From NCBI GenBank assembly GCA_017540825.1, contig JAFYAH010000049.1:62001-126000 (forward strand): a stretch of 64,000 bases of DNA, read 5' to 3'. The stretch's first letter is position 1, and each line of letters opens with the position of its first letter. A program made the translations under genes and the position numbers. Below are positions 42,196 through 62,094 of the stretch, piece after piece. The notes beneath the pieces were generated by a model. The model worked only from the letters and a program-made list of their open reading frames with translations. It searched no databases and had not been told where the DNA came from. Source of the stretch: Candidatus Methanomethylophilaceae archaeon (lineage in GTDB: Archaea; Thermoplasmatota; Thermoplasmata; Methanomassiliicoccales; Methanomethylophilaceae).

Positions 42196-42488
42196 GCGCC
42201 TCGTATACGCTCTTCCCTAAATAATTATACCTGACGCGCACAAGTTGTTCGTAAAATCACAAATGTCACCGAGCACATGCGGGCTTGGAACAATGGTCCA
42301 TGGACCGGGCGCGGTCGGCTGTCCCCCGTAGTAGTCGCACTGAAACCAATAAATCCTAAGATAATAATCACGAACTGTTCGATTCGACCGGCATCCGCAA
42401 CAATTCATGCTCGATTAGGGCAGAATATGCTAAGATAGCAAGTAGGACCAAAAACCTCGCGATGAATTGGGCTTCAAGGAGGATAAAG
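42196..42488. other. 293-base divergent intergenic region
   Basis: This region contains AT-rich promoter-like sequence for the ATP-grasp gene at 42219-42230, a perfect palindrome GGTCCATGGACC at 42295-42306, and AT-rich stretches near 42340-42365 that could serve the LicD gene. I see no reading frame or RNA gene. Confidence 0.45.
42476..42482 (+). promoter_or_regulatory. Strong ribosome-binding site deciding the Sel1-LicD start
   Basis: AAGGAGG lies six bases before ATG 42489. It selects this start over the in-frame ATG at 42462. Confidence 0.6.
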
Positions 42489-44132
42489 ATGAAAACCAAA
42501 GCGAACGTGAAGGCCAAGACCGGATCCACTGATGACAAGAAAACTACGCTGAAAGCGGCCAGGCTGGCGGCTTCGAAGGCGACTGTGGAGCTCTTCGACA
42601 TCCTTCGCAAGACCAAGGGATCCGAGGCCAAAGAGGAGATGTTCAGGATCATCGAGCCATTCGCCATCTCCGGGTATCCTCCTGCGATGACCCGCCTTTC
42701 CATCTGCTACAGAGAAGGGTACGGGGTGGGGAAGGACCTCGGAAAGGCCATAGAATGGATGGGAAAGGTCGCAGATACGGGTTCCGAGGCTTCCGCTTGC
42801 AAGCTCTTCGACCTCCTGCAGGAGCAGGATCCGAAGGGCAACGGGAACAGGATGTTCAGCGCCATCGAGCCCTACGGTGAGACCGGCAAAGAGCCGGCCA
42901 GGATGCGCTACGCCCTCTCCTTCCTGAACGGGTACGGGGTGGAGAAGGACGTCAAGAAGGCCCTGGACATAATCGTCGGGCTCCTCCCCGTTGATCCGAA
43001 ATGGACCCCCGACCTCTATCGCGCGGCGCTGGAGCACTACTACTCCGGAGGCAGCATCGTCGACGGCCTCAGCAGCCTGAAGCTCTATAGCAAAGTCGAA
43101 GACATAGCCAGCTCCCTGTCCCTGTTCTCTAAAAACTATCTGCTGGTGTCTCTGATCGAGTCGCATCTCGGGATCAAGCCCACGTACGCTGATGAGATAA
43201 AGGATGTTTCTAATAAAAAAGAATGCATAATGTCCGATTGCAGGATACTCTTCAACGCTTTGAAAACGATGAGGAGGAACGATCTTGTAAACTCTGTCAA
43301 CATACCCCGCACCTTGAACACGATCCTGGATGCTGGGAGGTCCTCAGGCACATTGAATGACGATGACGTCGTGTCTCTGTTCATGTCCCTGAAAGCCGAC
43401 GACGAGGACGCGGACGCCGCGCACAAAGCGCTGATGGCGCTGATGACAGACTTCGACGAGGAGTGCAAAGCCTGCGGCGCGTCGTACCACATCACCCATG
43501 GCGCCCTGCTGGGAGCGTACCGCCACAAAGGATTCATCCCCTGGGACGGCGACATAGACGTCTGCATGCTCCGCGAGGACTGCGACAGGCTGAAGGAGCA
43601 TTGCGACCGCGACTCGAAGGTCGTGCTGTCGGAGACGCTCAGGCAGTCGGGAAAGGACATCCGCCGCATACGCAAAGCCAAGCATCCGGGGTCTGCCGCC
43701 GGCGGCCCCTCGATAGACGTCCTCGTCTGCTGCCCCATTGGCTCCTCCGACGAATGCGCCAAGAAGTACGCGGAAATCGACGAGTCGTTCCGCGCGAGGA
43801 TCGCGGCAATCGTCGACGAGGACGTGGAGAGCAAGACCGACCCGAAGCTGGACGACAGGATACCTGCCATCTTCTCGGAGGCCGCCGAAGAGATGAAGGG
43901 ATGCTCCGGCGACAGAAGCATGCTGGCGCTGGCTTTCGACAACCCACCGGGGCTCGACAGGAGCCTGATGTTCTCTCGCGATGACGTCCTTCCGACCGGC
44001 ACGGCGAGGTTCGAAGACATGGACCTCCCTGTTCCGAAGAACGTCGGGAAAGTCCTGGAAGCGCTGTACGGGAACGTGCTGAGATTCCCGGACGAGATGT
44101 ATCCGCGCAGGAAGGCGTCGCGGAAGCCATGA
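42489..44132 (+). CDS. Sel1-repeat / LicD phosphotransferase fusion protein (copy 1)
   Basis: The 547-residue protein joins Sel1-like repeats (about residues 25-190: CYREGYGVGKDLGKAIEWMG, LNGYGVEKDVKKALDI) to a C-terminal LicD-family domain (about 300-540) with HITHGALLGAYRHKGFIPWD then GDIDVCM. This is the nucleotidyltransferase-fold signature that places phosphocholine or a similar head group on surface sugars. The Asp pair for metal (DGDID) is present. The end PKNVGKVLEALYGNVLRFPD is the usual LicD tail motif. No signal peptide is present. The start is set by AAGGAGG. It is followed 16 bases later by a second fusion of the same type, so they are probably co-transcribed. The donor is unknown. 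The nearby LicC-like gene may make it. Confidence 0.87.
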   Translation: MKTKANVKAKTGSTDDKKTTLKAARLAASKATVELFDILRKTKGSEAKEEMFRIIEPFAISGYPPAMTRLSICYREGYGVGKDLGKAIEWMGKVADTGSEASACKLFDLLQEQDPKGNGNRMFSAIEPYGETGKEPARMRYALSFLNGYGVEKDVKKALDIIVGLLPVDPKWTPDLYRAALEHYYSGGSIVDGLSSLKLYSKVEDIASSLSLFSKNYLLVSLIESHLGIKPTYADEIKDVSNKKECIMSDCRILFNALKTMRRNDLVNSVNIPRTLNTILDAGRSSGTLNDDDVVSLFMSLKADDEDADAAHKALMALMTDFDEECKACGASYHITHGALLGAYRHKGFIPWDGDIDVCMLREDCDRLKEHCDRDSKVVLSETLRQSGKDIRRIRKAKHPGSAAGGPSIDVLVCCPIGSSDECAKKYAEIDESFRARIAAIVDEDVESKTDPKLDDRIPAIFSEAAEEMKGCSGDRSMLALAFDNPPGLDRSLMFSRDDVLPTGTARFEDMDLPVPKNVGKVLEALYGNVLRFPDEMYPRRKASRKP

Positions 44133-44148
44133 TACGGAGCAGGTCCAA

Positions 44149-45900
44149 ATGTCTGACGTCAGCGCCATGATGAAAAGGTCGAAGGACTACCTGAAAGGGA
44201 ACGGCGTGGAGAAGAGCCGCGACAAGGCCCGCTACTGGATGCTCATGGCCTCGTACCAGGGCTCCTCTGAAGCCGCCAACATGCTGTACGACATGTCCCG
44301 CAGGACCTCCGACGAAGAGAAGAGGGAGGAGATCGCCCGCGTCATAGAGACGTTCGCGGAATCCGGCAACGTCGCCTCCATGGTGCGCCTGTCTCTGATG
44401 TACAGGGACGGCTACGGCGTCGAGCAGAACGAGCTCCTCAGCATGGAATGGATGAGGAAGGCCTCGGAGGCTGGTTACGAGCCTGCTGCGTCAAAGCTGT
44501 TCGACCTCATGGCGGCTTCCGACGACCCCAGGGTAAGGAACAGGGCCCTCGACGCCCTCGCGCCCTATGCCAAGTCGACGAGGGGGTCCACCGTGATCAA
44601 GAGGGCCATAGCTTACCGCGAGGGCTACGGGGTGGAGAAGGACCTGGACAAGGCCGTCGGAATACTCTCGGAGGCTTCCAAGTTCAAGAGGAAATGGAAC
44701 GTGGAGCTGTACAGGTTCGCGGCGGAGCTGATCAGGAGGGGGCACGGGGTCGCCGACTCGCTCAAGAGGTGCCGCGTCGACTCCAAGGACGTGGACATGG
44801 CCAAGTCCCTCTCGCTCTTTTCCAAAGACCGCCTGTACCTGCCTCTGCTGGAGGCGTTCACGGGCAAGAGGTTCTCGTACGTGGACTGGGTCTCCCAGAG
44901 GCCCGATCCGATGGGGACCATGGCGGAGGACTTCAATACCGTCATCAACATACTCAACGGCAACCGCACCGACGACCTCGTCAGGCCGGCGAACGTGGCC
45001 GCTATGCTGAACGGGATACTGGCGCAGTCCAAGGAGCAGGGACTCCTCGACGACGAGGGGATCCGCTCGGTGTTCATGAAGGTCCGCATCGAGGACCCCT
45101 ACCTCAAGCAGATGCAGGACGGGCTCACCACCCTTCTGGACATATTCGACAGGCTCTGCAAGAGCAACGGCATCAGGTACATGATCTCCTGCGGAACCCT
45201 CCTGGGAGCCTACCGCCACGAGGGCTTCATACCCTGGGACGACGACACCGACATCTACATGATGAGCGAGGACTACGCGAAGCTCTCCGCGATCCTCAAG
45301 GACAACCCGGTGCTCATGACCCTGGACCGCATGTACGCGTCGAACCTCAAGGGCCATGGGGTGAACTACGCCCACCAGGTGGTATTCAGGAGCCCGAAGC
45401 TCAGGATCATCCACCTGGGAGTCATGACCTTCGACTACGTCAAGTCCGCAGACGACGAGGGCTGGGAGATGTACAGGAGCTACATCGACGAGCGCCGCAA
45501 GAAAGTGGACGCGTACACCAAGGAGGACAAGAGGAGCGGCGTCGACCCTCTCTCCGACAGGAGGATCAGGGCGATCTACCGCGACGCGATGTCGAACTTC
45601 AGCAAGGACCTGGAAGGCGGGGAGAGGAACGCCGTGGCGCTGTCGTTCGACAACCCCATCGCCTTCGCGAAGAGGAAGCTGTTCGACTACGGCGACTTCT
45701 TCCCCGAGAGGGACATGAAGTTCAACGGGCTGATGCTTCCGGCCCCGAACCGCCCCGAGGTCATCATGGACAGGCTGTACGGGAACGTGATGCTGTTCCC
45801 TAGCAACCTCCTGGTCCACAGGCATGCGGCGTGGGACGAGGAGAACGCCACGTACATCAGGAACTATCTCGCCAAGCTGAAGGAAGAAGGGTACTACTGA
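44149..45900 (+). CDS. Sel1-repeat / LicD phosphotransferase fusion protein (copy 2)
   Basis: The 583-residue paralogue of the preceding gene has Sel1 repeats at about residues 10-190 (GNGVEKSRDKARYWM, YRDGYGVEQNELLSMEWM, YREGYGVEKDLDKAVGIL) and LicD at about 325-575. The LicD signature is SCGTLLGAYRHEGFIPWD followed by DDTDIYM, with both metal Asp residues, and the tail is MDRLYGNVMLFP. The middle region (SLSLFSKDRLYLPLLEA) is shared with copy 1, so they arose by duplication and diverged strongly. It is a cytoplasmic enzyme by prediction, acting on lipid-linked or nucleotide-linked glycans. A strong hairpin follows. Confidence 0.88.
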   Translation: MSDVSAMMKRSKDYLKGNGVEKSRDKARYWMLMASYQGSSEAANMLYDMSRRTSDEEKREEIARVIETFAESGNVASMVRLSLMYRDGYGVEQNELLSMEWMRKASEAGYEPAASKLFDLMAASDDPRVRNRALDALAPYAKSTRGSTVIKRAIAYREGYGVEKDLDKAVGILSEASKFKRKWNVELYRFAAELIRRGHGVADSLKRCRVDSKDVDMAKSLSLFSKDRLYLPLLEAFTGKRFSYVDWVSQRPDPMGTMAEDFNTVINILNGNRTDDLVRPANVAAMLNGILAQSKEQGLLDDEGIRSVFMKVRIEDPYLKQMQDGLTTLLDIFDRLCKSNGIRYMISCGTLLGAYRHEGFIPWDDDTDIYMMSEDYAKLSAILKDNPVLMTLDRMYASNLKGHGVNYAHQVVFRSPKLRIIHLGVMTFDYVKSADDEGWEMYRSYIDERRKKVDAYTKEDKRSGVDPLSDRRIRAIYRDAMSNFSKDLEGGERNAVALSFDNPIAFAKRKLFDYGDFFPERDMKFNGLMLPAPNRPEVIMDRLYGNVMLFPSNLLVHRHAAWDEENATYIRNYLAKLKEEGYY

Positions 45901-45924
45901 CAGCCCTTGCGAATGAGGATAAAA

Positions 45925-45942
45925 CCGGGGGGAGACCCCCGG
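45925..45942. terminator. Bidirectional terminator between LicD copy 2 and asd
   Basis: A seven-base stem CCGGGGG/CCCCCGG with a GAGA loop fills the 50 bases between two convergent stop codons. It is flanked by AAAA on the left, so it provides a T-run for the minus strand. Confidence 0.65.
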
Positions 45943-45950
45943 AAACGATT

Positions 45951-47012: not shown

Positions 47013-47377
47013 TTCTTTGGCACATCCTGTTGATGACGGCCGGAATCGCTGGTTCTTAATAAATATATATTGAAAGTATAGACGGCCCATCTGCAAGGCT
47101 TGCGGCAGGAAGATGCCCCGGGATCGGCTGATAGTCGCCCGCAATAGCGCCCAGACGTCGATAATCGAGCGAAATGCGAATGGCGCCCTGCGTACGATCG
47201 GAGCCGTGACAAAAGCGCTGAGCATGTCATGCGCTTCATTTTATAGAACCGACCAAAATTGTTTGGCATCTTAGGACCAGCGGTCCTTCGCCATATCGCG
47301 ACGCTGCCGATGTTCGCAGAAGATCGTCGCGTATGCCGGAGACGGCTGCGACGACTACTTTACGAGGAGACTCTGAA
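47013..47377. other. 365-base divergent intergenic region
   Basis: This region holds the asd TATA box (about 47058-47070) and a TATA-like TTTTATAG at 47239-47246 for the downstream gene. The predicted leader of the latter is about 100 bases. An in-frame ATG at 47333 could extend the downstream protein by 15 residues (ETAATTTLRGDSE), which lack family similarity. No other gene or repeat is seen. Confidence 0.45.
47058..47070 (-). promoter_or_regulatory. Promoter of asd
   Basis: The minus strand reads ATATATATTTATT, 46-58 bases before the asd ATG, leaving a leader of about 20 bases. Confidence 0.5.
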
Positions 47378-49987
47378 ATGGACGTAAGACTGGAGCTGCC
47401 TCTGCTCAAGTGCACCGGATGCAGCGCATGCGAGAGCGTATGCCCTAAAGGCGCCATATCCATGGACATCAATTCCCAAGGATTCGGAAAGGGGTTCAGA
47501 TACCCGCATGTAGACGCGAGCAAATGCATCGAGTGCGGCAAATGCGTGAAGACCTGCCCTGTGTTGAACCCGAGCTATTCGGGGGACAAGAAGCCCAAGG
47601 TCTATTCGGTCAAGTGCCCGAGCCATCAGATGAAATGCGCGTCCGGAGGAGTCTTCGGATTCCTGGCGGACCGCTTCCTGAGCGAAGGCGGCGGTGTGTG
47701 CGGAGCGGCCTTCGACGAAGGGTTCGAGCTCAGGGAGAGGTACGTGGAAGACCCCGAGGGGCTCCCTCCTCTGCTGAGCTCCAAATACCTGCAGTCCTAC
47801 CCGGGCGACGTCTACTCCGAGATCGAGAAATCGCTGAAGGCCGGGAAAAAGGTCCTGTTCTGTTCCACTCCCTGCCAAGTAGCAGGCTTGAAAGCGTACC
47901 TGAAGAAGGCCCCCGGCAACCTGTACTGCGTGGACCTGCTCTGCCGCGGGGTGCCGTCCAACGAGCTTTTCAAACGCTACCTCCACGAGACTTTCAACGG
48001 CGACATCGAGAACGTCGGCTTCCGCAGCAAGTCGGTCGGCTGGACCACCAGCATGACCATATCCCGCCCGAACGGCAAGGAGGAGGTCTACAGCAGAAAG
48101 GACGACCCATACATCCGCCTGTTCGAGAGCTGGGCGTCTCTTCGCGAATCCTGCTACGAGTGCCCGTTCAACCGCATCCCGAGGCAGGGCGACCTCACGA
48201 TAGGCGACCATTGGGGGGTCGGCGCAGAGAACCGCAACAGGAAGGGCATCAGCATTGTCCTCGTCAACAGCAAGAAAGGCAAAGAGCTCCTGGACATGAT
48301 CGAGAAGGGAGGGAACTCCGTCATCGAGACAGACATAGAGTCAGCCAGCGCCCGCAACAGGGCGATGACCAAGCCGACGGCGAAGCCCAAGGCATACGCC
48401 AAGCTCCAGGCGGGGCTGGAAAGCCTCAGCGTATCAGACGCCCTCTGGTACGCCGGGCTCGTCAAGAAGGACGTATGCATGGTGCTCATGTCCAACCGGA
48501 ACTTCGGGAACAACCTGACCAACTGGTCCCTCTACCGCACGATAAAGAGCATGGGCTACAGCGTGGTCATGACGTCCAGGAACAGGACCCACAGGATCTC
48601 TCCGCTGTTCCAGAAGAACCCTTACCGCCCCGACGAGTCCTTCGTCCTGGACCCGTACCGGCTCAACGACCTGTGCAAGGTGTTCCTCGTCGGATGCGAC
48701 CAGACGTTCGCGCCCATGGGCATATCCAAGGAGCGCGTGACCCTCCTCCCGTGGGTCCGCGGGGACAGGTACAAGATGTCGTACAGCGCCTCCCTGGGGA
48801 AGTCGGTGTACGAGGACGCCACGGAGGACCAGATCAAGCAGTTCGCATACCTGTTCAAGCGCTTCAACGCCGTCTCCGTGAGGGAAGCCAGCGGGCCCGG
48901 CCTCATGCGCGAGACGTTCGGCGTCGACGCCGAGTGCGTCATGGACCCGGTATTCCTGTCGACGGCCGACGACTACCGCTCCCTGGCAGCGACCAGCAGG
49001 ATCAAGGCGCCTCGCGAGAAGTACGTCCACTGCTACCTCCTGGACCCCACCCCGGACAAGGTCGCTGAGGTGAAGAGGTACGCGAAGAGGATGGGGATAA
49101 AGAAGATAACCTGCATAGTCAACAAAGGCGAGAGGACGCCGATAGAGGGCTTCGAAGTGCACAGGGCGAGGGTGGAGTCCTTCATAGAGCTGCTGGACAA
49201 GAGCTCCCTGTTCGTCACGGACTCCTTCCACGGCTTGTGCATGGCCATGATACTGAACAAGAACTTCTATGCACTCAAGGTCAAGAAGATAAGGGGAGAG
49301 GAGCGCTTCAGGAGCATCCTGGGCCTGGTCGGCCTCGAGGACAGGTGGGCGTCCGTCGCCGAGCCGAGGTTCGACGACATCGACTACGGCCCGGTCAACA
49401 GCATTCTGGGGAAGGAAGTGGAGAGGTCCAAAGCCTGGCTTAAGGAGCACCTGGAGCAAGGAATGGCGTTCGACGGGCCCCTGGATGCGTACGACATGCA
49501 GCTGGTGAACGCGGACCGCGTCATGAGCTTCCAGAGCGCGTCGTTCAGGCAGGCCTCGTTCGCCATGAACGCCGACTGCAGGTCCTCGGAGGTGTTCGAC
49601 CCCTCGGTGTGCGCCTCCATCGGGAACAGCTACCACGCCGGGAGGAGCGTCCCCAAGGACGACTCGAAAGCCATAGAGTGGCTCAAGCGCGCATGCATGT
49701 CCGGCGACGTGCCTTCCATGGTCGCGCTCCGCCGCATCCTTCGCGGAAGGGACGACGAGGAGTCCAGAAGGGACCTCCTTTCGACGACCAGATAGCTGGC
49801 AGACCTGCGGGCGCCGGGCCACGGCCTGATGGTGGCCAGGCTCTACGAGGAGGGGTCATGCGTGGAGAAGAGCCACGAAGACGCGGTCAGATGGGCGGGA
49901 TCCGCCGAGAAGCTGGAGGCGTACATGGCCATGATCTCCCCGGACGGCGAGGACGACGGCGAAGAAGCATCCGAGTTCCGAGCGTGA
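47378..49987 (+). CDS. Ferredoxin / F420-dehydrogenase-beta / polysaccharide pyruvyltransferase / Sel1 fusion with in-frame TAG
   Basis: The 869-codon protein has four parts. Residues 10-62 are a two-cluster ferredoxin (CTGCSACESVCP and CIECGKCVKTCP). About 70-350 resemble the FrhB/FdhB coenzyme F420 dehydrogenase beta subunit (CASGGVFGFLADRF, FCSTPCQVAGLKAYL, LTIGDHWG). About 365-670 match polysaccharide pyruvyltransferase (SNRNFGNNLTNWSLYRTIK, GCDQTFAPMG, SLFVTDSFHGLCMA). From about 740 on there are Sel1 repeats. A TAG at 49793-49795 (codon 806) falls inside the Sel1 region. Beyond it the same frame reads GLMVARLYEEGSCVEKSHED and AVRWAGSAEKLEAYM, a clear Sel1 unit, to TGA 49985. The frame is thus best read through. 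It probably modifies a surface glycan in a redox-linked way, which is inferred. Confidence 0.85.
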
Positions 49988-50141
49988 CGAATCGTCGAAC
50001 GAAGTTCCTGAAAGCGAGCGCAGACGAGGCCAGCACCGAGGGCTGATGCCTTCGAATCCAAGACAGCGGCATACGGCCGACGCTCCCCTCGCTTTCCGAC
50101 GAGAACGCAGGTTAAAAGAACAGGCTGAGCTATGCGGGAGC

Positions 50142-51098
50142 ATGCCTCCCTGTTCCGACACTTGCATCATCTGCGAGAGGAACGAAGGGACAATCCGCAC
50201 CAAGGACGGCCTGGTATGCAGGGAATGCATGCCCGATGACCTGATACCGAAAGCGCTCTCCTTGGGAAAGAACCAGATAATAGTATACGCCAGGGCGCAC
50301 AGCGGCAGGAAGCCTCGCGTGGAGAGGAACTGCACCAAAGCCTTGGACGATTCCGTGAGAAGCCGCAGCAGGGCCATCTCCCAAGGGACCGGGATCACCC
50401 TGGCGGAGGCGCTGAACGACGTCATGGCGCGCTCCCAGAGCATCGACATAGTGGTGTCGTTCATCAGGATGTCCGGGCTGAACCTCCTAATCGACGGGCT
50501 CAGGGACGCGGCGGAGGCCGGCAAGAGAATCCGGGCGATAACCACCGCGTACATGGGCGCCACCGAGTACGAGGCGGTCGCGGAGCTGTCCGACCTTCAC
50601 GGCGCGGAGGTCAGGATGGAGCTGAATCCCGAACGCTCCCGTCTCCATGCCAAATGCTTCCTCTTCACCGCATCGGACGGGAGAGGGACGGCTTTCATAG
50701 GGTCGGCGAACATATCGGAGAGCGCGCTGACGACCGGTGAGGAATGCGTTGCCATGATCAGGGAGGAGGACCTTCCGATGGTCTTCGAGGACCTCCGCTC
50801 CGAGTACGAGAGGCTGTGGTCGTCGCCGCTCCTGGAGAAGGTGACGAGGGACGACCGCGCCAGGATAGAGAGGGCTATCGAACGCAGGGGGAAACGAGCA
50901 GATGAAGATGAAGTTGGAGCTGGAAGTGAGCAGGATCGGGTACGTCCTTTACAGGAACGGGATGAACCCCGTGCTGACGGCCACGGCGGAGGCCGGGGAG
51001 GACGTCAAGAGCATAGAGTTCACCCTGAGGTCGGAGCCTCCGTTCGTCACCGCCCCGCCGTTCAAAGCGGACGGGATAGCCGGCGGCACGAAGCTTGA
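50142..51098 (+). CDS. PLD-family nuclease-like protein with N-terminal zinc ribbon
   Basis: From ATG 50142 the protein begins with CIICERNEGTIRTKDGLVCR and ECM, a four-Cys zinc-binding element. A phospholipase-D-like domain follows (about residues 85-235), including DIVVSFIRMSGLNLLIDGL and the HxK(x)4 region RLHAKCFLFTASDGRG then AFIGSANISESALTTGEE. Single-HKD PLD domains often act as nucleases, usually as dimers. The reliable sequence ends near 50895 (ERAIERRGKRA). The frame then runs 65 codons out of phase over the next gene to TGA 51098. A TGA one frame off overlaps that gene's ATG, so a one-base slip in the GGGGG run at 50887-50891 is possible. The start could also be upstream (50046). 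It is paired with the giant helicase. Confidence 0.75.
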   Translation: MPPCSDTCIICERNEGTIRTKDGLVCRECMPDDLIPKALSLGKNQIIVYARAHSGRKPRVERNCTKALDDSVRSRSRAISQGTGITLAEALNDVMARSQSIDIVVSFIRMSGLNLLIDGLRDAAEAGKRIRAITTAYMGATEYEAVAELSDLHGAEVRMELNPERSRLHAKCFLFTASDGRGTAFIGSANISESALTTGEECVAMIREEDLPMVFEDLRSEYERLWSSPLLEKVTRDDRARIERAIERRGKRADEDEVGAGSEQDRVRPLQERDEPRADGHGGGRGGRQEHRVHPEVGASVRHRPAVQSGRDSRRHEA

Positions 51099-54000: not shown

Positions 54001-56856
54001 GTCTCCGTGGTCCTCCGCGACTCCGGCACGGACTTCGACAGCCTGTCTGGAACGGTCGAGCTCATAGCCAAGGTGTCCGGGGACTTCAGGGCCCTCTCCT
54101 CTGTCCCGAGGTCCATCGGATCCAGGTCCAACGAGACCGGTTCGGAGAGGAGCAGGCTGGAGGACGTCCTCCGCCGCGCGTCGGCCACGCTGTCGTCCGC
54201 GGAAGCAGCCGGGCTGCCCCCTGAGGAGCTCGCCAGGCTCCGCGAGGCCATCGGCACCTCCATGGAGAGCATAGAGCTTTACAAGGCGGCCTCCGAGAGA
54301 TGGACCGCCGCCCGCGACAGGCTGGCCTCCGTCATGAAGACCGACGCGGAGATCTCCACCCCTGCGGGATGCAAGGCGTACTGCGAGTCGGTCCGCCCGC
54401 ACCTGGGAGGCGTGTTCGACTGGGCGAACTGGAACTACTACGCCGCCAAGCTCTCCGAAGAGGGCCTGAGCTCGTCCTGCGAGGCCATAAGGTCCGGGAT
54501 GGAGGCGGAGGACGTCGTCAACTCCACCTACAGGTCGATCTACAAGACCATGATCAACATCTGCAGGCAGGAGTCGGAGTCGCTGCGCATGTTCAACGCG
54601 TCGACGTTCGAAGGGCTCATCGAGAAGTTCAAGAAGCTCGACTCCTCCTACACCGAGATCAACAAGAGCATCCTGAAGTACAGGCTCTACAAGAACATAC
54701 CCCGCAACATGGACAGCTCGGTCCCCGACTCGGAGGCCGGGAAGCTGTACAAGGCCGTCAGCGGTACCCGCATGAAGAAGTCCATCAGGACCCTTCTGGG
54801 GGAGATACCGCACATGCTGCCCAAGCTCTGCCCGTGCCTCCTGATGAGCCCCCAGTCCGTCGCGCAGTACATAACCATGGACTATCCCAAGTTCGACCTG
54901 GTCGTCTTCGACGAGTCGTCCCAGATAACGACCAGCAAGGCCATCGGGTCCCTGGGCAGGGCGAAGGCGGCGATCATAGCAGGCGACAGGGAGCAGCTCC
55001 CGCCCACAAGGTTCTTCCAGAAGAAGATAGAGGCGGAGGAGGGCGAGGAGGACATAGAGGACATGGAGAGCTTCCTCGAGGACTGCCTGGCCCTGAACAT
55101 GCCGCAGACATATCTGGAATGGCACTACCGCAGCCAGCACGAGAGCCTGATCGCGTTCAGCAACAAGATGTTCTACGACAGCAAGATGCTCACCTTCCCT
55201 TCGCCGAACGACCAGGAGACCCGGGTCGGCATGCGGTTCGTGGAGAACGGGGTGTACGAGAAGGGGAAGCGCTACAACGCCATAGAGGCGGCGGCCGTCG
55301 TCGACGAGGTCTACAGGCGCGTGATGGACAGGAAGTACGCCGGCGAGAGCATAGGGATCGTCGCTTTCAGCATCAGCCAGCAGAACTGCATAGAGGACGC
55401 GATGGACGATATGGCCGCGAAGCACCCCAAGTTCTACCAGAGGCTGAGCACGATGTCCGAGGAGATGTTCATAAAGAACCTCGAGACCGTCCAAGGGGAC
55501 GAGAGGGACGTCATCCTGTTCTCCATCGGATACGGGCCCGGAAGGGACGGCACCGTCGCCCAGTCCTTCGGCCCGATAAACCGTCCCGGCGGAGGGCGCA
55601 GGCTCAACGTTGCCGTCTCCCGCGCCAGGTACGAGATGCTCGTGTTCTCGTCCATGAGGTACACGGACGTCAAGCTCACGCCCACGTCCAGCACCGGGGT
55701 CCGCAGCATGAAGGAGTTCCTCAGGTTCGCCGAGAACAACGGGCGCTTCGGGGACCAGGACCGCACCAGGCCTTCGGAAGGGATGTCCTCCATCATCGAG
55801 GACATCGCAGCGTCCTTGAAGACCATCGGCTACTCGTCGCACTTCGGGATAGGCAACTCGGGATTCAAGATCGACCTGACCGTCCTGGACCCTGACGACC
55901 CCGAGAAATACATATTGGGGATCCTGAACGACGGAGACTCCTACAGAGCCTCGGACAACACCAGGGACAGGGAGTTCGCGAGGGCGGACGTCCTCCTCAG
56001 GCTAGGATGGAACATAATGCACGTCTGGTCCGTGGACTGGTACTTCAGCAAGAAGCTGACGCTCAAGAAGATCGCGGACAGGATAGCGGACATCAGAGCC
56101 AAGCGCCTGGAGGCGGCGGAGAAGGCGGAAGAAGAGGAGCCAGAGGAGGTCGTCTCTGATGTCCCTGATGAGATCTCTGATCCTGTCTCTGATGAGGCCC
56201 CTGACGCTCCTGCCGAAGAGCCAGAAGAAGGGGCTCCCGTGGACACTGGCACAGAGCCGGCGGAAGCAGAGCCCGAGCCCAGAAGAATCCCGTACTTCCC
56301 TCCGGATCTGCCGGCTTTCAACGTATCCGCAGACGCAGCGATATTCGACAGGATGACCGTAACTGGGATCGCAGGCAGGATAATCAGCCTGGAGTCGCCG
56401 GTCAACGAGGAGCAGCTCCTGAGCCTGTACAGGAAGAGCGCCGGGATCAAGCGCCTGATGGAACAGAAGAGGAACGTGCTCGTAGGAAACCTGCGCACAG
56501 CGTTCAGCCCGGAGATGCGCGACGAGTTCGTCACATACTGGGCAGAGGGGTCGGACAGGAGCATCCGCACATATCGCGTCGCCGAGACTGCGGCCAACTC
56601 CAGGGACATCACCTGCGTGCCGCTGATCGAGATCCTGAACGCCTGCGTCGACGTGGCCGAGGCCTCGGTCTCGATCCCGAAGGACGCCTGCGTCACGGCT
56701 GTAGGAAAAGCTTTGGGTTACAAGCGCGCGGGAGCCAACGTCCTCGCTCTGGTCGGAAGAGCCCTGGACATCGCCATAGAGGACGGCCTTGTCAAGGAAT
56801 CCGGCGGGAACATAATGGCGGAGCGAGCCGCCGGATCAGATGCCACTATAGTCTAA
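50902..56856 (+). CDS. Giant transglutaminase-like / DUF4011 / SF1 helicase / Vsr-like nuclease / DUF3320 protein
   Basis: The 1984-residue protein has, in order: a beta-rich N-terminal domain; a transglutaminase-like domain with Cys213 (SKEGTCIDMAVLYCSV) and His239 (AKGHAFAGFW); DUF4011 at about 362 (MWKRDLLDISSRNPLVNM); and a superfamily 1 helicase with Walker A at about 664 (HGPPGTGKSQTITNI), Walker B at about 1337 (LVVFDESSQITTSKA), QLPPT, and motif VI at about 1571 (NVAVSRARYEMLVFSS). A Vsr/MTES_1575-type endonuclease-like region follows at about 1630-1720 (FKIDLTVLDPDDPEKYILGI, DREFARADVLLRLGWNIMHV, WSVDWY). An acidic linker leads to a DUF3320 domain at about 1790-1984. DUF4011-helicase-Vsr proteins have been reported as single-protein anti-phage systems. 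Walker motifs and the nuclease Asp residues appear intact. A PLD nuclease gene overlaps its start. Confidence 0.85.
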   Translation: MKMKLELEVSRIGYVLYRNGMNPVLTATAEAGEDVKSIEFTLRSEPPFVTAPPFKADGIAGGTKLDLREHLKVALDPSLLISAADTAPCRIFIEASSEDGEAVSEFCDTEVLPFEFWPGFEYPDLVASFVTPNAECLAEIRSSASDVLREWGMDPSLEGYQGDRNRVSAMAAAAFVAIQRMNVNYVVPPAGFETSGQRIRLADTVTSSKEGTCIDMAVLYCSVLESMGLNTFVFLAKGHAFAGFWLVDEHMADTVSVDSSAITRLVRNRDACAVECTLMCAPGRETFDEACRKALERLDDTDSFICAVDVRKARNTIAPLPTRRFENGVWVADRDEDTHRAAAPKSVGEVYEEAEERPLTRVDMWKRDLLDISSRNPLVNMKVGAKAVPLLVSDTSLFEDLFYNGEQLLIMPKPQDWDGAKTYAERPFETEAYVGNYARSCAEEIGRGWVRTPLTEAETLSSVKSIYRLYRKEMEESGCNSLFVTVGVLRWFEERGDRIPRYSPLILIPAELVKKQKGYAVVRYDEEAVFNVTLAEKLRQEREITITGIDPLPLDENGVNVDRVSQNVRRCIEGQEGWEVLDGAALGVFSFSQYAMWKDIDKNMDRLRENPVVDALVSGGIYRADPALSADADPYQLCLCVAADGSQIKAVRASGEGKTFVMHGPPGTGKSQTITNIISNAMYQGKTVLFVAEKRAALEVVQKRMDKIGVGNHCLELHSDKTEKTKVLEQLKRAMEPCKECDTSKLDETLAKLDGMRSKLDSYVSDLHKRREWGFSAYECISRYEAYDVKGAKDLKVSPSTAVRMRPETIGNLEDDILKAHQAYGIASSMCDTGQLESIHVDFPTASLQYDIEEAMDEAIAAADEVEALGARISGLGLPQDAEAANRMVEAVLAADPEMASDPSLRTIPDVVPRAIELMDDVFPAFSSWDAREVRPDQASRMLKASEDLERLLAMIMERGWLPKDCASHAAAREVSGFCSKILSMRSDMYKIETKWRPDVYDFNGRYDVRRNWHDANGKMLFKGGAKKKFMADVSVVLRDSGTDFDSLSGTVELIAKVSGDFRALSSVPRSIGSRSNETGSERSRLEDVLRRASATLSSAEAAGLPPEELARLREAIGTSMESIELYKAASERWTAARDRLASVMKTDAEISTPAGCKAYCESVRPHLGGVFDWANWNYYAAKLSEEGLSSSCEAIRSGMEAEDVVNSTYRSIYKTMINICRQESESLRMFNASTFEGLIEKFKKLDSSYTEINKSILKYRLYKNIPRNMDSSVPDSEAGKLYKAVSGTRMKKSIRTLLGEIPHMLPKLCPCLLMSPQSVAQYITMDYPKFDLVVFDESSQITTSKAIGSLGRAKAAIIAGDREQLPPTRFFQKKIEAEEGEEDIEDMESFLEDCLALNMPQTYLEWHYRSQHESLIAFSNKMFYDSKMLTFPSPNDQETRVGMRFVENGVYEKGKRYNAIEAAAVVDEVYRRVMDRKYAGESIGIVAFSISQQNCIEDAMDDMAAKHPKFYQRLSTMSEEMFIKNLETVQGDERDVILFSIGYGPGRDGTVAQSFGPINRPGGGRRLNVAVSRARYEMLVFSSMRYTDVKLTPTSSTGVRSMKEFLRFAENNGRFGDQDRTRPSEGMSSIIEDIAASLKTIGYSSHFGIGNSGFKIDLTVLDPDDPEKYILGILNDGDSYRASDNTRDREFARADVLLRLGWNIMHVWSVDWYFSKKLTLKKIADRIADIRAKRLEAAEKAEEEEPEEVVSDVPDEISDPVSDEAPDAPAEEPEEGAPVDTGTEPAEAEPEPRRIPYFPPDLPAFNVSADAAIFDRMTVTGIAGRIISLESPVNEEQLLSLYRKSAGIKRLMEQKRNVLVGNLRTAFSPEMRDEFVTYWAEGSDRSIRTYRVAETAANSRDITCVPLIEILNACVDVAEASVSIPKDACVTAVGKALGYKRAGANVLALVGRALDIAIEDGLVKESGGNIMAERAAGSDATIV

Positions 56857-56882
56857 CTTCTTCGACAGACTATAGTGGCATC
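56839..56882. terminator. Perfect 16-base inverted repeat between convergent genes
   Basis: The arms at 56839-56854 and 56867-56882 (cores CACTATAGTCT / AGACTATAGTG) pair perfectly around a 12-base loop. They enclose the helicase stop codon and lie 10 bases from the next gene's stop. The stem is unusually long and not GC-rich for a terminator here, but the position suits a two-way terminator. Confidence 0.6.
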
Positions 56883-56891
56883 ATGCAGCGG

Positions 56892-59594
56892 TCATTCGGT
56901 TCTGGAAAGGAGCTCGTTGAACTCCTCGCCCCACTTGTCTGGGTCGTCTATGTAGGCTTTCTCCATCCATTCTACAGCCTTTTCCAGATCCGTCTGGACG
57001 CCTTTGCCGTCGCGGTACATGCGAGCTATCAGCCCGCAGTAGGACGGCTCGAAGGTATCACTATAGTGTTCGTTGCAGAGGCGCCACGCCTTCTCGTGAA
57101 GGTCGGGATCGTCGGAGTCTATAAGGAACTCGCAGTAGTCGGAATCCCTGACGCCGCCGGAAGCCTCTGAATACCTGTCGAACCATTCCATGGCCTTGGG
57201 GACGTCCTTCTTGACCCCTTTGCCGTCGCGGTACATGGAAGCCAGCATCAGGCAGCTGAACGGGGAGCCGTTCTTCTTATAAAGGCCGGAGCATATCCTG
57301 TGGGCCTCCGCATGGTCCTCCGGGCGGTCCGTGCTCATCAGGAACTCGCAGTACTCCCGAAGATACCTGTTGGGGGCCGCCTTCGCAGCCTTCTGCATGC
57401 AGTCCACCGCCTTGGGCAGGTCCTTATGGACGCCCTTCCCGTAGCGGTATGCGCGCCCTATGAGAGCCAGATACATGTCCGACCCGGTCTTGGCGTAGCG
57501 CTCCTCCGCGATGTCCAGCGCCTCCCTCTCCAGGTCCGGGTCCCCGGAGGACTGGAGCATGCGGCAGAACTCGTAGGACAGCTGAGAAGGCCTCTCCTTG
57601 ACGGCCTTCCTCATCCATCTGGCGGCCTCGACCATGTCCTTGGGAACGCCCTTGCCGTCGCGGTACATGCCGGACATCATCATCCACAGGTCGGGGTTCC
57701 CTCCCTTCTTGCACATCTTAGCGCAGATCTCGGCCGCCTTCTTGTGGTCCGAGGGATTGTCGGAGTCGGACAGCAGCCTGCAGTATCCCGCCTCGTAGGA
57801 GGGGTCCAGCGCGGTCGCCCTGCCCATCCATCTCATGGCCTCGGCCTGGTCGGCCTCCGTCCCCTTCCCTTCGTGGTACATGGTCGACAGCATGGCGCAC
57901 AGCTTGGGGGTCTCCCTCTTGGCTATCTGCGCCTTGCAGAACGCGACGGCCTCGGCGCGCCTCTCCGGGTCCTCGGAGTCCATGAGCATGGCGCAGTAGT
58001 CGGCCGCATAGCGCTGGGGATTGAGCTCGGCGGCGTCCCTCATCCACATGATGGCGGCTTCGGGGTCCTTCTCGACGCCCCTCCCCTCGGAAAGCATCTT
58101 GGACATGCGGGCCATGGCGTACGGCCGGCGGATGTTGGCCTCCGGGAGGATCGCGTCCATGAGCTCGTCGTCGGAGTCCTTCGTCCTCCACAGAACGTCG
58201 AACAGCCTCACCCCGGAGTTCACGAAGCCGTCGGCGACCTCCTGCCTGTAGTGGTCGGCGACCATGTGGAGGCAGGCCGCCTCCTCCTCGCGGCTCTTCT
58301 CGACCCCTCTGCCCGCGGCGTACGCGTCGGCCAGGCGGTATGCGGCGTGGAAGTCGGTGTCCCTGTACGGCATTATGAGGCTGACGGCCTTGGCGTCGGA
58401 AGCGGGATCCCCCTTCTCCCAGAGGACGTCGAAGCGGTCGATGAGGTCGGCGACCTTCTCCACGCTCCTGAGCTCCTTGTCGCGGTTCTCGTGGAACGCG
58501 TCGTATATGGGGGAGAACATCCTCTCCTCCCTGTTGGCCCTCAGGTACCAGAGGTAGCGCCTGCGGTGCTCCCTGTAGAACCCCACGTCGTAGACCTCCG
58601 AGAAGGCGTCGAGCTTCCCCAGGGCGTCCAGCGCCAGGAGGTTCCTCGAGCACTTGTCACAGCGCGAGCAGTTGTCCGCCGAGTACATGCAGGAGTGGAG
58701 GTGCCTCTGGGCGATCGGGTACCTGGATATGTCCGCGATCTTCTCCATCCTTGAAAGGGCGCTCCCCTCCGTCAGTATCTCCATGCCGGAGGTGCTCAGG
58801 CACGAGAACAGGAACCCCTCGTAGTCGGAGGACCCCCTGGACAGGAAGTGCTTGAAGGACCAGCCCGTGGCGCCCTCGTTCCCTCCGGAGGCGTAGTAGT
58901 AGCACCTCCAGAGCTTCCTGAGGCACAGGACGGTGAAGGCGGAGGTGAAGTCGTGCGTGAACAGATGATTCTGGGTGAACACCTTGCTGATGTTGCAGTC
59001 CGTCTCGATGAGCGGAAGGCCCGCCTCCTCGGCGACCTCCCTGGCGCGCTGGTAGACCTTGGCCTTCATGCTCTCCGAGGGGTCCGCGGTGAAGGTGGTG
59101 TCGAAGGAGCCGGTGTTGTTGACGCAGAGGTGGGTCAGCCTGAACCTGTAGATCGGATGGTCCGCGTACTTCTGCAGCACGTGCATCGCGTCGACCCCGC
59201 AGGACATCCCGGTCCCGACCCCGGTGCCCTTCGGGAGGGGCGGCAGGAGCTTCGCGCTGATGCGGACGTCGTGGCCGCCGTTCCTTACCAGGTGCGGCAG
59301 AAGCCTCTCGACGATGTTATGGTACAGGTCCTCGGACATGGGCACGTCCGACCTTATGTCGTATCCCCTGTAGAGCGCATACCACAGCAGGAGCACCACG
59401 AAGGCGTCCGATCTCTCCGTCACCAGGTACAGCGAGTACGCCGCAGGGACCTCGAAGAACACCTCCTTGCTCTCGGTGGTGGGGATCCCTCCCACCGGGA
59501 CCGTCTCGTCGATCCCGCAAACTATCCTGGACCTCTCCTCTCCGTCCTCCTGACGGATCCATTTGATGTGAAGACTCTTCAACTCTTCCGACAT
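56892..59594 (-). CDS. QueC-like PP-loop ATPase / Sel1-repeat fusion (copy 1)
   Basis: The 900-residue protein has an N-terminal N-type ATP-pyrophosphatase-like domain (about residues 60-330) with the PP-loop GTGMSCGVDAMHVL at about 130 and a cysteine cluster NCSRCDKCSRNLLALD at about 315. It recalls 7-cyano-7-deazaguanine synthase (QueC), where such cysteines bind zinc. The usual SGGxDS loop is altered to SCGVDA. From about residue 420 to the end there are about 12 Sel1 repeats with YRDGKGV or similar (YRDGKGVPKDMVEAARWM, YRDGKGVQTDLEKAVEWM). There is no signal peptide. It follows its paralogue by 13 bases, so the two probably act together. The target substrate is unknown; adenylation of a carboxyl, carbonyl or amide group is inferred. 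Confidence 0.8.
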   Translation of the reverse strand: MSEELKSLHIKWIRQEDGEERSRIVCGIDETVPVGGIPTTESKEVFFEVPAAYSLYLVTERSDAFVVLLLWYALYRGYDIRSDVPMSEDLYHNIVERLLPHLVRNGGHDVRISAKLLPPLPKGTGVGTGMSCGVDAMHVLQKYADHPIYRFRLTHLCVNNTGSFDTTFTADPSESMKAKVYQRAREVAEEAGLPLIETDCNISKVFTQNHLFTHDFTSAFTVLCLRKLWRCYYYASGGNEGATGWSFKHFLSRGSSDYEGFLFSCLSTSGMEILTEGSALSRMEKIADISRYPIAQRHLHSCMYSADNCSRCDKCSRNLLALDALGKLDAFSEVYDVGFYREHRRRYLWYLRANREERMFSPIYDAFHENRDKELRSVEKVADLIDRFDVLWEKGDPASDAKAVSLIMPYRDTDFHAAYRLADAYAAGRGVEKSREEEAACLHMVADHYRQEVADGFVNSGVRLFDVLWRTKDSDDELMDAILPEANIRRPYAMARMSKMLSEGRGVEKDPEAAIMWMRDAAELNPQRYAADYCAMLMDSEDPERRAEAVAFCKAQIAKRETPKLCAMLSTMYHEGKGTEADQAEAMRWMGRATALDPSYEAGYCRLLSDSDNPSDHKKAAEICAKMCKKGGNPDLWMMMSGMYRDGKGVPKDMVEAARWMRKAVKERPSQLSYEFCRMLQSSGDPDLEREALDIAEERYAKTGSDMYLALIGRAYRYGKGVHKDLPKAVDCMQKAAKAAPNRYLREYCEFLMSTDRPEDHAEAHRICSGLYKKNGSPFSCLMLASMYRDGKGVKKDVPKAMEWFDRYSEASGGVRDSDYCEFLIDSDDPDLHEKAWRLCNEHYSDTFEPSYCGLIARMYRDGKGVQTDLEKAVEWMEKAYIDDPDKWGEEFNELLSRTE

Positions 59595-59607
59595 GGCGCC
59601 ACCTTCC

Positions 59608-62094
59608 TCAGACTCCTCCGGCCTTCCTCTCGGCCCTTATTGCTTCCAGCCCCTTGCTCCATCTTCCGGGGTCCTTCTCGCAGGCCTTGGCCGTCCACTT
59701 CTCGGCCATGACCAGGTTCCTCGGGACCCCTCTCCCGTAGCGGTACGCCCTCCCCAGGCGGCCCATGGCCCCGGGGTTGCCGGCGTTCGCGAACGGCAGT
59801 ATCATGTTTATCATCTCTTTGTCAGTGTCCTCGGCCCGGTCGGACCAGTACATCTCGAACAGCTCTATTGCCGCGATGGGCATCCCGGCCTCCGCCGCCT
59901 TGCCGTACCACTCGACGGCCGCCCCGGGGTCCTTCTCCACGCCCTTCCCGTCCCTGTACATGCGGGCCCTCTGGAGGTAGGCGTACTTCGACCCGCTCTC
60001 AGCCTCGGACGCACAGAGCCTGCTCGCCTCGTCGCGGAACTTAGGGTCGCCGGACTCCATGAGGGTGTCGTAGAGCTCCTGGAACCATGCCGGGTCCTTG
60101 TCCGTCGCGCGCCTGAGCCACCTGCGGGCCAGGAGGTAGTCCTTGGAGACCCCTCTGCCGCGATGGTACATCCTGCCCAGGCGGCCCATGGCGGACGCGA
60201 CCCCTGCCTCGGCGGAGGAGCGGACCAGCCCGAGGAGGTCGAGGTCGTCCCTGCGGTCGTCGAACGTCCACAGTATGTCGAACAGCTCCATGGGCGCCCA
60301 CTCCACGCCGTACTCCACGGCCTTCCTGTACCATCCTGCGGCGGCATGGAGGTCCTTCTCCACGCCCTTCCCGTCGCGGTATATGCGCCCGAGGAAGCCG
60401 TAGGCGTACCTGGCGCTACGGTCGCAGCGCTCCAGGCAGATCTCCAGAGCCAGCTTGTGGTAGTCCTCGCGGTCCGACTTCAGCAGGAGGTCGCAGAGCT
60501 CGGAGAGCCATACCGGGTCCTTCTCGTACGCCCATCTGAACCACCTGACCGCCTCGTCCGTGTCCTGGGGGACGCCTTTCCCGTCCCTGCAGGCGCGCCC
60601 CATGCGGGCGATGGCGGACATGTCCTCCGCGTCCAGCAGGGGCTTCAGGAGGCCTATCATCTCGGGATAGGTGCTCTCGTCCTCCAGGGCCCAGAGGGTG
60701 TCGAACAGCTTTATCCTCGAGGTGCTGAACCCGTCGGCGACCTCCTGCCTGAGGGCGTCCACGGTGATCCCCCAGTACCTCTGGGCCATATCCTGGTCCT
60801 TCTCCACGTAGATGCCGTACTTGTAGGCGCGCCCGACCCTGAAAGCCGCGTGCATCTCTCCGGCGTCCGCATATCCCTTGAGGGTGTCGAACGCCTCGCC
60901 TATCCAGCCCTTGTCGCCGCTCCTCCAGGCGTCGTCGAAGTCGCCGACCGCCCGGAACACCTTCCCTGTGCTCTCGAAGTCCGGGTCCCCCTTCTCGGCG
61001 AAGTTGGCGAACACCGGGCCGAAGTAGTCGTCGTCCTTCTTTGCGTAAAGATACCACATGTACCTGTACTTGAAGCTCCTGTACAGGTCCAGGTCGTAGA
61101 TCCCGGCGAATCCCTCCAGCTTACCGATGGAGTCGAGCGTCATCATGTTCCTGATGCACTTGTCGCACTTGGAGCAGTTGCGATAGGAGGACGTACACGA
61201 CACCAGATGCCTCTGCGCCACCGGATACTCCGATATGGCCACGGTCTTGTCGTACCTGGACACCGTCGGGGCGTCGATGTATATGCGCATCGAGGGCGTG
61301 CTGAAGCAGTTCACCGTCAGGAGCTCGTACTTCGAGGGCGGGAACATGAGGTGCCCCTTGATGGAGAACTCCGTGACGCAGTCCACCCCGGAGGACGCGT
61401 AGAAATAGTATCTCCATAGCTTCTTCAGGCAGAATATCGCGAACGCGGAGGTGAACGTGTGGGTGAGGTAGTGGTTCTGATGGAGGACCTCGTCGACGTT
61501 GGAGTCCGTCTCTATGAGAGGGAGGCCTATCTCCTTCGCGGCCTCGCGGGCGTTGGCGTACATCCCCTGGCGGACGTTGTCTATGCCCTCCATCCTGTAT
61601 ATGCCGTTGAAGGCGCCGACGTTGTTTATGCATAGGTGGGTGATCCTGAACTCCGGGTCCTCGGACTCGGCCAGCCTCATCACGCTGTACATCGAGTCCA
61701 CCCCGCAGGACAGGCCGGTCCCCACAGCCTTCCCTCCGCCTATGGCGCTACCCCTCTTCAGGAAGAGCTGCGCGGGATACCCGTCGTTCTTCACCACCGG
61801 CGGAAGGAACTGCTCCTTCAGGTTATAGTACAGGTCGTTGGATATCGGTATGTCGGAGCGGATGTTGTACCCCTTGGCGACGGCCAGCCTGATCAGCAGG
61901 ACCACGAACGCGTCGCACCTCTCCACAAGGAGGTAGTCGGAATACTCCGAGGGGACGGAGAACCAGACCTCCTTCGGGTCTACCGACTCGGTTCCGTCCT
62001 CTCCGAAGTCCACGACGTCCACCTTCCCTTTAAGGAAGGCCTTGCCGCCGGCGTCCTCCTTCCATATCTCCTTTATAACCAACTCCCCGAGCAC
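59608..62094 (-). CDS. QueC-like PP-loop ATPase / Sel1-repeat fusion (copy 2)
   Basis: The 828-residue paralogue of the next gene has the PP-loop VGTGLSCGVDSMYSVM at about residue 130 (closer to SGGxDS than copy 1), LPLIETDSNVDEVLHQNHYL, and the Cys cluster NCSKCDKCIRNMMTLD at about 310. About ten Sel1 repeats follow from residue 420 (YRDGKGVEKDLHAAAGWYRK, YRYGRGVPRNLVMAEKW). The start is GTG 62094, chosen because the following LVIKEIWKED aligns with the N terminus of copy 1 and no in-frame ATG exists nearby. A TATA-like GTATTAAG lies about 45 bases upstream. No membrane segment is present. Preservation of the reactive Ser/Asp loop in this copy suggests it is the more active partner. Confidence 0.8.
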   Translation of the reverse strand: MLGELVIKEIWKEDAGGKAFLKGKVDVVDFGEDGTESVDPKEVWFSVPSEYSDYLLVERCDAFVVLLIRLAVAKGYNIRSDIPISNDLYYNLKEQFLPPVVKNDGYPAQLFLKRGSAIGGGKAVGTGLSCGVDSMYSVMRLAESEDPEFRITHLCINNVGAFNGIYRMEGIDNVRQGMYANAREAAKEIGLPLIETDSNVDEVLHQNHYLTHTFTSAFAIFCLKKLWRYYFYASSGVDCVTEFSIKGHLMFPPSKYELLTVNCFSTPSMRIYIDAPTVSRYDKTVAISEYPVAQRHLVSCTSSYRNCSKCDKCIRNMMTLDSIGKLEGFAGIYDLDLYRSFKYRYMWYLYAKKDDDYFGPVFANFAEKGDPDFESTGKVFRAVGDFDDAWRSGDKGWIGEAFDTLKGYADAGEMHAAFRVGRAYKYGIYVEKDQDMAQRYWGITVDALRQEVADGFSTSRIKLFDTLWALEDESTYPEMIGLLKPLLDAEDMSAIARMGRACRDGKGVPQDTDEAVRWFRWAYEKDPVWLSELCDLLLKSDREDYHKLALEICLERCDRSARYAYGFLGRIYRDGKGVEKDLHAAAGWYRKAVEYGVEWAPMELFDILWTFDDRRDDLDLLGLVRSSAEAGVASAMGRLGRMYHRGRGVSKDYLLARRWLRRATDKDPAWFQELYDTLMESGDPKFRDEASRLCASEAESGSKYAYLQRARMYRDGKGVEKDPGAAVEWYGKAAEAGMPIAAIELFEMYWSDRAEDTDKEMINMILPFANAGNPGAMGRLGRAYRYGRGVPRNLVMAEKWTAKACEKDPGRWSKGLEAIRAERKAGGV

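Follow-up and report, generated by a model that had tools for sequence, protein, structure and literature searches.

Paralogous PP-Loop–Sel1 Proteins of a Methanomethylophilaceae Archaeon Belong to an Undescribed Family of the QueC/QatC Kind, Most Likely Linked to the Cell's Sugar Coat

The window analysed here is a stretch of 64,000 nucleotides from the genome of a Candidatus Methanomethylophilaceae archaeon (assembly GCA_017540825.1, contig JAFYAH010000049.1, positions 62,001 to 126,000). Its subject is a pair of adjacent genes whose products, P0002 and P0001, are predicted to join a PP-loop ATP pyrophosphatase domain to a long solenoid of Sel1 repeats. The pair is genuine and stands for an enzyme family of the QueC/QatC kind that has not been described before and that was elaborated with Sel1 repeats in one lineage. 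Its most likely role is in building the cell's sugar coat, since relatives of its PP-loop domain elsewhere usually lie in surface-sugar gene clusters, and we consider a surface-glycan role very probable. The fuller reading that we favour, with some reserve, is that the two proteins are paralogues that work in the biosynthesis of surface polysaccharides; they would adenylate a substrate, form an amide on a glycan and dock through their Sel1 repeats, with P0001 as a weakened partner. The features of the pair are the following:

59608..62094, minus strand: P0002, PP-loop ATPase with Sel1 solenoid, 828 aa, GTG start, first gene of the pair
60940..62094, minus strand: P0002 residues 1-385, N-terminal beta/alpha domain and PP-loop ATPase core (AlphaFold2 model, VIA)
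61693..61710, minus strand: P0002 PP-loop SCGVDS, residues 129-134 (sequence, conservation in 39 relatives)
61156..61197, minus strand: P0002 zinc-type cysteines C300, C307, C310 and C313 (zinc inferred from QueC/QatC)
59620..60984, minus strand: P0002 Sel1 solenoid, residues about 371-825 (PF08238 and full-length model)
56892..59594, minus strand: P0001, paralogue of P0002, 900 aa, ATG start, second gene of the pair
59187..59204, minus strand: P0001 PP-loop with a Ser to Ala change, SCGVDA, residues 131-136 (sequence)
56949..58340, minus strand: P0001 Sel1 repeats, residues about 419-882 (PF08238)

The open reading frames (ORFs) were called by a greedy longest-ORF rule, not by a gene finder. 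In the order of transcription, P0002 with its SCGVDS loop leads and P0001 with SCGVDA follows 13 nt downstream. The two proteins match along almost their whole length (36% identity over 815 aa, E 1e-163) and are, judged by their sequences, paralogues. PF08238 was found in six stretches of each (E 9.9e-39 and 5.4e-38), both passing the gathering cut-off of 30.7 bits with 130.8 and 128.5 bits, and in the full-length model of P0002 (pLDDT 93.5) the N-terminal domain continues into a single helical solenoid spanning residues 371-825. An earlier note on this DNA had described two adjacent large proteins combining an ATP-pyrophosphatase-like domain, with SCGVDA and SCGVDS loops and zinc-type cysteines, with long Sel1 solenoids. 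All of this was confirmed: both ORFs and their repeats are present, the loops begin at residues 131 and 129, and the four cysteines are C300, C307, C310 and C313 of P0002.

The AlphaFold2 model of P0002 residues 1-390 (pLDDT 95.4, pTM 0.93) was compared with known structures by VIA, a re-alignment of Foldseek candidates. The best match was QatC (Z 13.4, 313 residues aligned, rmsd 5.2, model residues 1-378), and the second was Cap9, of which 170 residues of the core only were aligned (Z 12.2). They were followed by TtuA (Z 11.0), MesJ/TilS, LarE, 4-thiouridine synthetase, MnmA and GMP synthetase. As VIA ranks QatC, Cap9 and then other PP-loop enzymes, the N-terminal domain of P0002 is modelled with the fold of a PP-loop (N-type) ATP pyrophosphatase, of the kind seen in QueC and QatC, and the extra domain at its N-terminus is probably of the QatC type. 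The PP-loop fold proposed in the earlier note is thus borne out by the model and by VIA, and its term QueC-like holds at the level of the fold. As a family assignment the term fails, because QueC (PF06508) gave no match at E<=1 for either protein.

The N-terminal domains of P0001 and P0002 remained below every Pfam, NCBIfam and PADLOC cut-off, and no PP-loop relative came up when the PDB was searched by sequence with the P0002 domain and with profiles A1 and A4; the only PDB match in one profile search, Ask1 (E 0.077), looks like a chance hit. Among the 39 relatives of the PP-loop domain, one matched QueC at E 0.067. The QatC model NF041925 matched neither P0001, P0002 nor the 16 rows of alignment A1 at E<=1, and PADLOC QatC matched none of the 39 relatives. 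Profile-profile alignment by hhalign gave a probability of 94.8% with DUF6395 (PF19932; E 5.5e-8, co-linear over 246 columns) and 82% over 110 columns with QueC. The probability with QatC was 8%, yet this alignment was co-linear over 252 columns. Controls with reversed or shuffled profiles gave 0.1-0.5%, and 0.1-0.4% for DUF6395. DUF6395 itself stayed below its Pfam gathering score of 25 bits (best 20.4 in the archaeon's own genome, 18.9 for P0001) and was found, by E-values only, in 9/39 relatives at E<=0.1, the best being 6e-4.

Among the relatives, S129, G131 and D133 of the P0002 loop are kept in 39/39 sequences, C300, C307 and C310 in 38/39, C313 in 37/39 and D61 in 36/39; the cysteine site C(x)n-CxxCxxC, mostly with n=6, is present in 36/39. 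Conservation of SCGVD among the scan matches is partly ascertainment, since the pattern G[TV]G[LFV]SCGVD used in the scan itself required these residues; relatives caught by a second pattern carry SLG, SGG, SRG or SAG in the loop. D61 aligns with D62 of the QatC set, an Asp that is invariant in 8/8 QatC rows. PMC13329287 terms D63 of QatC catalytic, and this may be the Asp aligned to D61; the label D63 is absent from the main text of PMC13279940.

The pair can be set beside the known families motif by motif. The QueC motifs YxQxHxxE, VPxRN and YPDC, each found in 10/10 QueC controls, were each found in 0/39 relatives; QueC shares with the pair the PP-loop core and the zinc-type cysteines, and the pair differs by these missing motifs and by the extra N-terminal domain. 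By its VIA match, QatC appears to resemble the pair in having an N-terminal beta/alpha extension with its invariant Asp, a PP-loop core, a four-cysteine site and C-terminal helices. It differs in the weak profile match and in its motifs P(x)4TK, TxTTHP and CGxCxxCxxRR, present in 8, 7 and 8 of 8 QatC sequences and in 1, 0 and 0 of the 39 relatives, and the pair family has mostly glycan neighbours where QatC has defence genes; the pair also has the Sel1 tail. Identification of the pair as QatC or QueC was rejected on motifs and cut-offs. Cap9 of type IV CBASS shares the core fold; according to the available text of PMC13329287, it consists of that core alone and keeps QueC-like CDG motifs that are missing in the pair family. 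DUF6395, the nearest family in sequence, has the PP-loop S-x-G-x-D in 12/13 members and the C-xn-C-x2-C-x2-C site in 13/13, but CWKC where the pair family has NCxxCxKC. One of the 13 DUF6395 proteins, L078, is fused to a GT2 glycosyltransferase domain, which ties DUF6395, too, to glycan synthesis. The PP-loop domain of the pair is an undescribed family beside DUF6395. By the part of PMC13329287 available to us, this family would fall outside the Pfam-based map of PF06508 clusters given there.

The genome-contig scan with the two loop patterns yielded 44 loci, namely 9 from Thermoplasmata, 1 on a small contig labelled Methanobrevibacter and 34 others. A Sel1 motif accompanied 8/9 Thermoplasmata loci and 0/35 other loci, and relatives that stand alone without Sel1 are spread over numerous bacteria and are present in two archaea. 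Thirteen bacterial genomes were searched whole; 12 have a single copy and one has two. Nine plasmid records contained a match. In the Bacteroidota order of Salinimicrobium, a survey with profile A4 found the family in 1/246 genomes, that one being the Salinimicrobium centre genome itself, so the family is rare and patchy there. No relative was found in phages or in viral contigs, the viral scan being limited to two short patterns. Alignments A3 and A7 served only as protein carriers for the tally scan and are meaningless as alignments. Two single loci may be recorded here. The Lentisphaerae contig G318 C30:20256-24984 has two gene copies about 2.5 kb apart, the second a 405-aa open frame, and may hold an independent pair; the relative at L044:439-2334 is longer at its C-terminus by about 250 residues, which by eye resemble a D-alanyl-D-alanine carboxypeptidase.

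Standalone relatives are found mostly in surface-polysaccharide loci. The bacterial ones stand mostly within tight co-directional gene runs. The 104 co-directional neighbours (proteins under 900 aa within two genes of 38 loci, L033 being left out) included, with overlap between families, 15 of Glycos_transf_2 (GT2), 15 of Glycos_transf_1 (GT1), 12 of PS_pyruv_trans, 8 of FrhB_FdhB_C with ferredoxin domains and 6 of TupA ATP-grasp. Loci from 12 of the 13 bacterial genomes (G318, on a short contig, was left out) were then compared with control windows chosen by the analyst, two per genome and mostly on the same contigs. GT2 was found at 8/12 loci vs 0/24 controls (p 2e-5), PS_pyruv_trans at 7/12 vs 1/24 (p 6e-4), GT1 at 6/12 vs 1/24 (p 0.003) and FrhB at 5/12 vs 1/24 (p 0.01); at least one of the four lay within 5 kb at 12/12 bacterial loci vs 3/24 controls. 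On the Gloeothece and Azospirillum plasmids an annotated pyruvyl transferase precedes the gene. The single copy of the archaeal genome G035 stands directly behind a PS_pyruv_trans gene, with GT2 two genes further and GT1 near, and in genome G001 the two copies are separated by a gene with a nucleotidyltransferase domain. As the earlier note had anticipated for a reading against its own proposal, homologues do occur singly and without Sel1 repeats; the unrelated contexts that it had named alongside were not what we saw, the contexts being mostly surface-polysaccharide loci.

Several observations count against the fold assignment or the glycan reading. A Foldseek search of the PDB with the model of the P0002 N-terminal domain gave no match at E<=0.001 (best 0.11), and the rmsd of the QatC superposition is as high as 5.2. 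Only 16/39 loci have an FrhB- or PS_pyruv-like gene no more than three genes away, and the copy of Paracoccus yeei is near non-polysaccharide genes for 3-oxo-tetronate and 3-oxoadipate. For several archaeal copies no glycan family was recognised nearby, a result that covers 10 proteins of these loci, a minority of the neighbours. In the archaeon's own genome, 24/33 scanned Sel1 ORFs have no glycan domain found, from which it follows that Sel1 is not a glycan-specific tag, and the orthologue in genome G018 of an FrhB-pyruvyltransferase protein of the window (47333..49795, described below) has no Sel1 repeats.

The archaeon's own genome (G000) has four copies of the PP-loop domain, and a match was found in 6/41 genomes, this one and 40 relatives. 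Most Sel1 forms of the Methanomethylophilaceae, the main ones, group in the tree as one 14-row clade (support 100/99), which contains the P0002 type, the P0001 type and a third, shorter type; two long-branch rows from G001, L015 and L018, fall outside it. The pair type is also present in G018, in G001 and, on separate contigs, in G002. As the three types share one clade, a single Sel1 fusion followed by duplications that predate these species is the simplest explanation. The Sel1 fusion of the PP-loop domain is limited to one Methanomethylophilaceae clade, and the pairing and the Sel1 tail are a lineage-specific elaboration outside the core function.

The earlier note had also suggested an active and an inactive partner from the change in the P0001 loop. 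At the column of S134 of P0002, 37 of the 39 sequences have S, one has T, and P0001 is the only one with A. Besides this Ser to Ala change, P0001 differs at one further position among 34 conserved ones and keeps its four cysteines. Its orthologue in G018 (L016) has several loop residues changed, a heavier and different loss, together with an in-frame TAG. In the G001 and G002 orthologues, meanwhile, SCGVDS is intact. The suggestion is therefore a weak one: the P0001 loop is altered, but the change is confined to its own sublineage. Since the G001 and G002 orthologues keep SCGVDS while P0001 and L016 differ, a loss of ATP turnover in P0001 is plausible, and would be specific to its lineage and no rule of the pair. 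The double mutant S156A/S161A of QatC no longer gives defence, according to PMC13279940, and the available part of that paper gives no single change. That P0001 is a decayed pseudogene was rejected, as the ORF is full and 2/34 conserved positions are changed, compared with 0-8 in other members. Single in-frame TAGs are present in each of L016, L017 and L020, relatives of the pair from G018 and G002; they may be read as pyrrolysine, because PylS passes its cut-off in G000, G018 and G001.

The window contains further Sel1-tagged enzymes on the other strand:

42462..44132, plus strand: Sel1-LicD fusion, 556 aa (profile scan)
44149..45900, plus strand: Sel1-LicD fusion, 583 aa (profile scan)
47333..49795, plus strand: FrhB-like and polysaccharide pyruvyl transferase domains with a marginal Sel1 repeat, 820 aa (scan, synteny with G018)

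Together with the pair they make up the five Sel1-tagged enzymes in 20 kb that the earlier note had counted (42462-62094), and the count stands with the reservation that the FrhB-pyruvyltransferase protein has one repeat of 25.5 bits, under the cut-off of 30.7. A Poisson estimate for >=5 Sel1 ORFs in this span, with 37 assumed genome-wide, is 1.8e-5, a value that counts tandem copies as independent and concerns a span picked after the fact. Of 36 Sel1 ORFs recognised in the genome, 33 were scanned (32 of these with Sel1 at E<=0.001), and 9/33 carry an enzyme or transporter domain: LicD in 3, FrhB-PS_pyruv in 1, ABC_tran in 1 and the PP-loop domain in 4. On contig C53 a third LicD-Sel1 gene lies 1.8 kb from a PP-loop-Sel1 gene. 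Such fusions of Sel1 to enzyme domains point to at least some of these proteins being intracellular glycan enzymes, and a shared complex of Sel1 proteins, as suggested in the earlier note, would fit the LicD, FrhB-pyruvyltransferase, ABC ATPase and PP-loop fusions.

The ABC transporter ATPase-Sel1 fusion (L108:2519-4486, G000 C50) lies about 4.5 kb before the first base of the window and is possibly the ATPase of a glycan exporter. Runs of four FrhB-pyruvyltransferase genes with changing strands were seen at G000 C57:935-9502 and G018 C17:79986-88523, and the copies checked have no Sel1. Distant relatives of the pair at L133:8681-10756 (G001) and L136:7348-9486 (G018) are fusions of a degenerate PP-loop, Sel1 and a hexapeptide acyltransferase, recognised by Pfam Sel1 and Hexapep in L133 and by eye in L136. 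In the window, a 1984-aa ORF that looks helicase-like by eye adjoins the pair at 50902-56856, and a similar ORF stands beside the G001 pair; on the strand of P0002 and next upstream of it, after a gap of 129 nt, 62224-63999 encodes a repeat protein that by eye resembles BspA-type leucine-rich repeats. AlgK and the Sel1/TPR-like polysaccharide-export proteins share Sel1-type repeats with the pair, and the AlgK model weakly matches them (E 2.8e-9 and 2e-10, far under the cut-off); unlike the pair, AlgK is a lipoprotein and has no known enzyme domain. Weak rows for PtuA1 (PADLOC), falling in the repeat region, and for a CcmH-like TPR were rejected as repeat cross-matches.

How the pair might work can be outlined from these data. 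The SxGxD loop would be the ATP binding site, and the cysteine site would hold a structural zinc, as in QueC. ATP would adenylate the carboxylate of a sugar or of a sugar carrier, such as a uronic acid or a similar acidic sugar, and ammonia or an amine would displace AMP to leave an amide on the glycan. The presence of TupA-type ligases among the neighbours (6/104) makes such amide formation on acidic sugars a natural guess; for the pair it is nevertheless put forward tentatively. In the gut-methanogen clade the enzyme would have been fused once to Sel1 repeats and duplicated afterwards. The repeats probably dock the pair beside the Sel1 proteins with LicD, FrhB-pyruvyltransferase and ABC ATPase domains, and in its own sublineage P0001 probably turns over less ATP or none, perhaps serving as a regulatory or structural partner. 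A bolder proposal, which we regard as rather unlikely, gives the QatC-type fold a third line of function in this family, beside queuosine synthesis and phage defence. It would act on surface glycans, possibly by joining an amine or nucleobase-like group to a sugar carboxylate; in gut methanogens its copies would belong to a Sel1-addressed complex with LicD, FrhB-pyruvyltransferase and an export ATPase, one copy being non-catalytic.

Other enzymes of the same fold suggest different chemistries. WbpG-type enzymes give an amidine product and work with a HisH/HisF partner. The pair might be a WbpG-like N-sugar amidotransferase, forming an acetamidine with ammonia from a HisH/HisF-like partner; PP-loop enzymes of this kind are known from O-antigen loci in the available part of PMC13329287, and relatives of the pair lie in loci of that sort. 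We consider this quite unlikely, because the WbpG cysteine motif CxxC(x)6CxC is present in 0/39 relatives and SGGxDSxY in 1/39, and no HisH/HisF family figures in the 25 commonest of the 118 neighbour families. Likewise improbable is a QatC/Cap9-like conjugation, in which a partner protein would receive a 7-deazaguanine-like base at its N-terminus, perhaps in defence, and the glycan context would be incidental. QatC does top the VIA ranking and spans nearly the whole model, and its profile alignment, co-linear with D61 against the invariant D62, is above the reversed and shuffled controls. Against this stand its low hhalign probability, the missing CDG-recognition motif YPDC and QatC motifs, the lack of any PADLOC QatC match in the relatives, and glycan genes as neighbours, with no relative in phages or, by two short patterns, in viral contigs. 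As to a qatA, qatB and qatD context, KAP and TatD do not figure in those 25 commonest families.

A sulfur-transfer (thiolation) enzyme like TtuA, NcsA or LarE, acting on a sugar or lipid carrier, would agree with the structural matches to TtuA, NcsA, ThiI-like and LarE proteins (Z 8.4 to 11.0) and with the loop cysteine C130, which is kept in 34/39 relatives and might take part in the chemistry. That cysteine is partly a product of the scan pattern and is replaced by L, G, R or A in 5/39, and the other cysteines have QueC-type spacing in 36/39, so this is very unlikely. The Sel1 proteins could also be surface adhesins or eukaryote-like factors with a vestigial PP-loop part, and the available text of PMC7883539 counts Sel1 proteins of Methanomassiliicoccales among adhesion or eukaryote-like factors; that of PMC4153887 takes those of these archaea as a possible gut adaptation. 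However, the 9/33 Sel1 ORFs are fused to enzyme or transporter-ATPase domains, which act intracellularly, and the intact loop of P0002 speaks against a vestigial domain, which makes this explanation highly improbable.

The earlier note knew of no described system with this architecture, and none was found in the openly licensed literature. That literature contained no paper on DUF6395 and none on Sel1 with LicD, on pyruvyl transferase with FrhB/coenzyme F420 hydrogenase or on PP-loop QueC with polysaccharide biosynthesis; QueC with capsule and uronic acid returned unrelated reviews only, and no title among those listed dealt with Sel1 as an archaeal polysaccharide scaffold. According to the part of PMC13279940 available, the modification of proteins by QueC-like enzymes in phage defence is a recent finding, and the substrate of QatC itself is unresolved. 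A family of QatC build in polysaccharide loci would offer a separate way to learn the role of such enzymes, and it cautions that the fold alone is insufficient for naming QueC-like genes defence genes. Several Sel1 proteins of gut methanogens would become readable as tagged intracellular glycan enzymes rather than adhesins, and their Sel1 tags would predict which enzymes bind one another.

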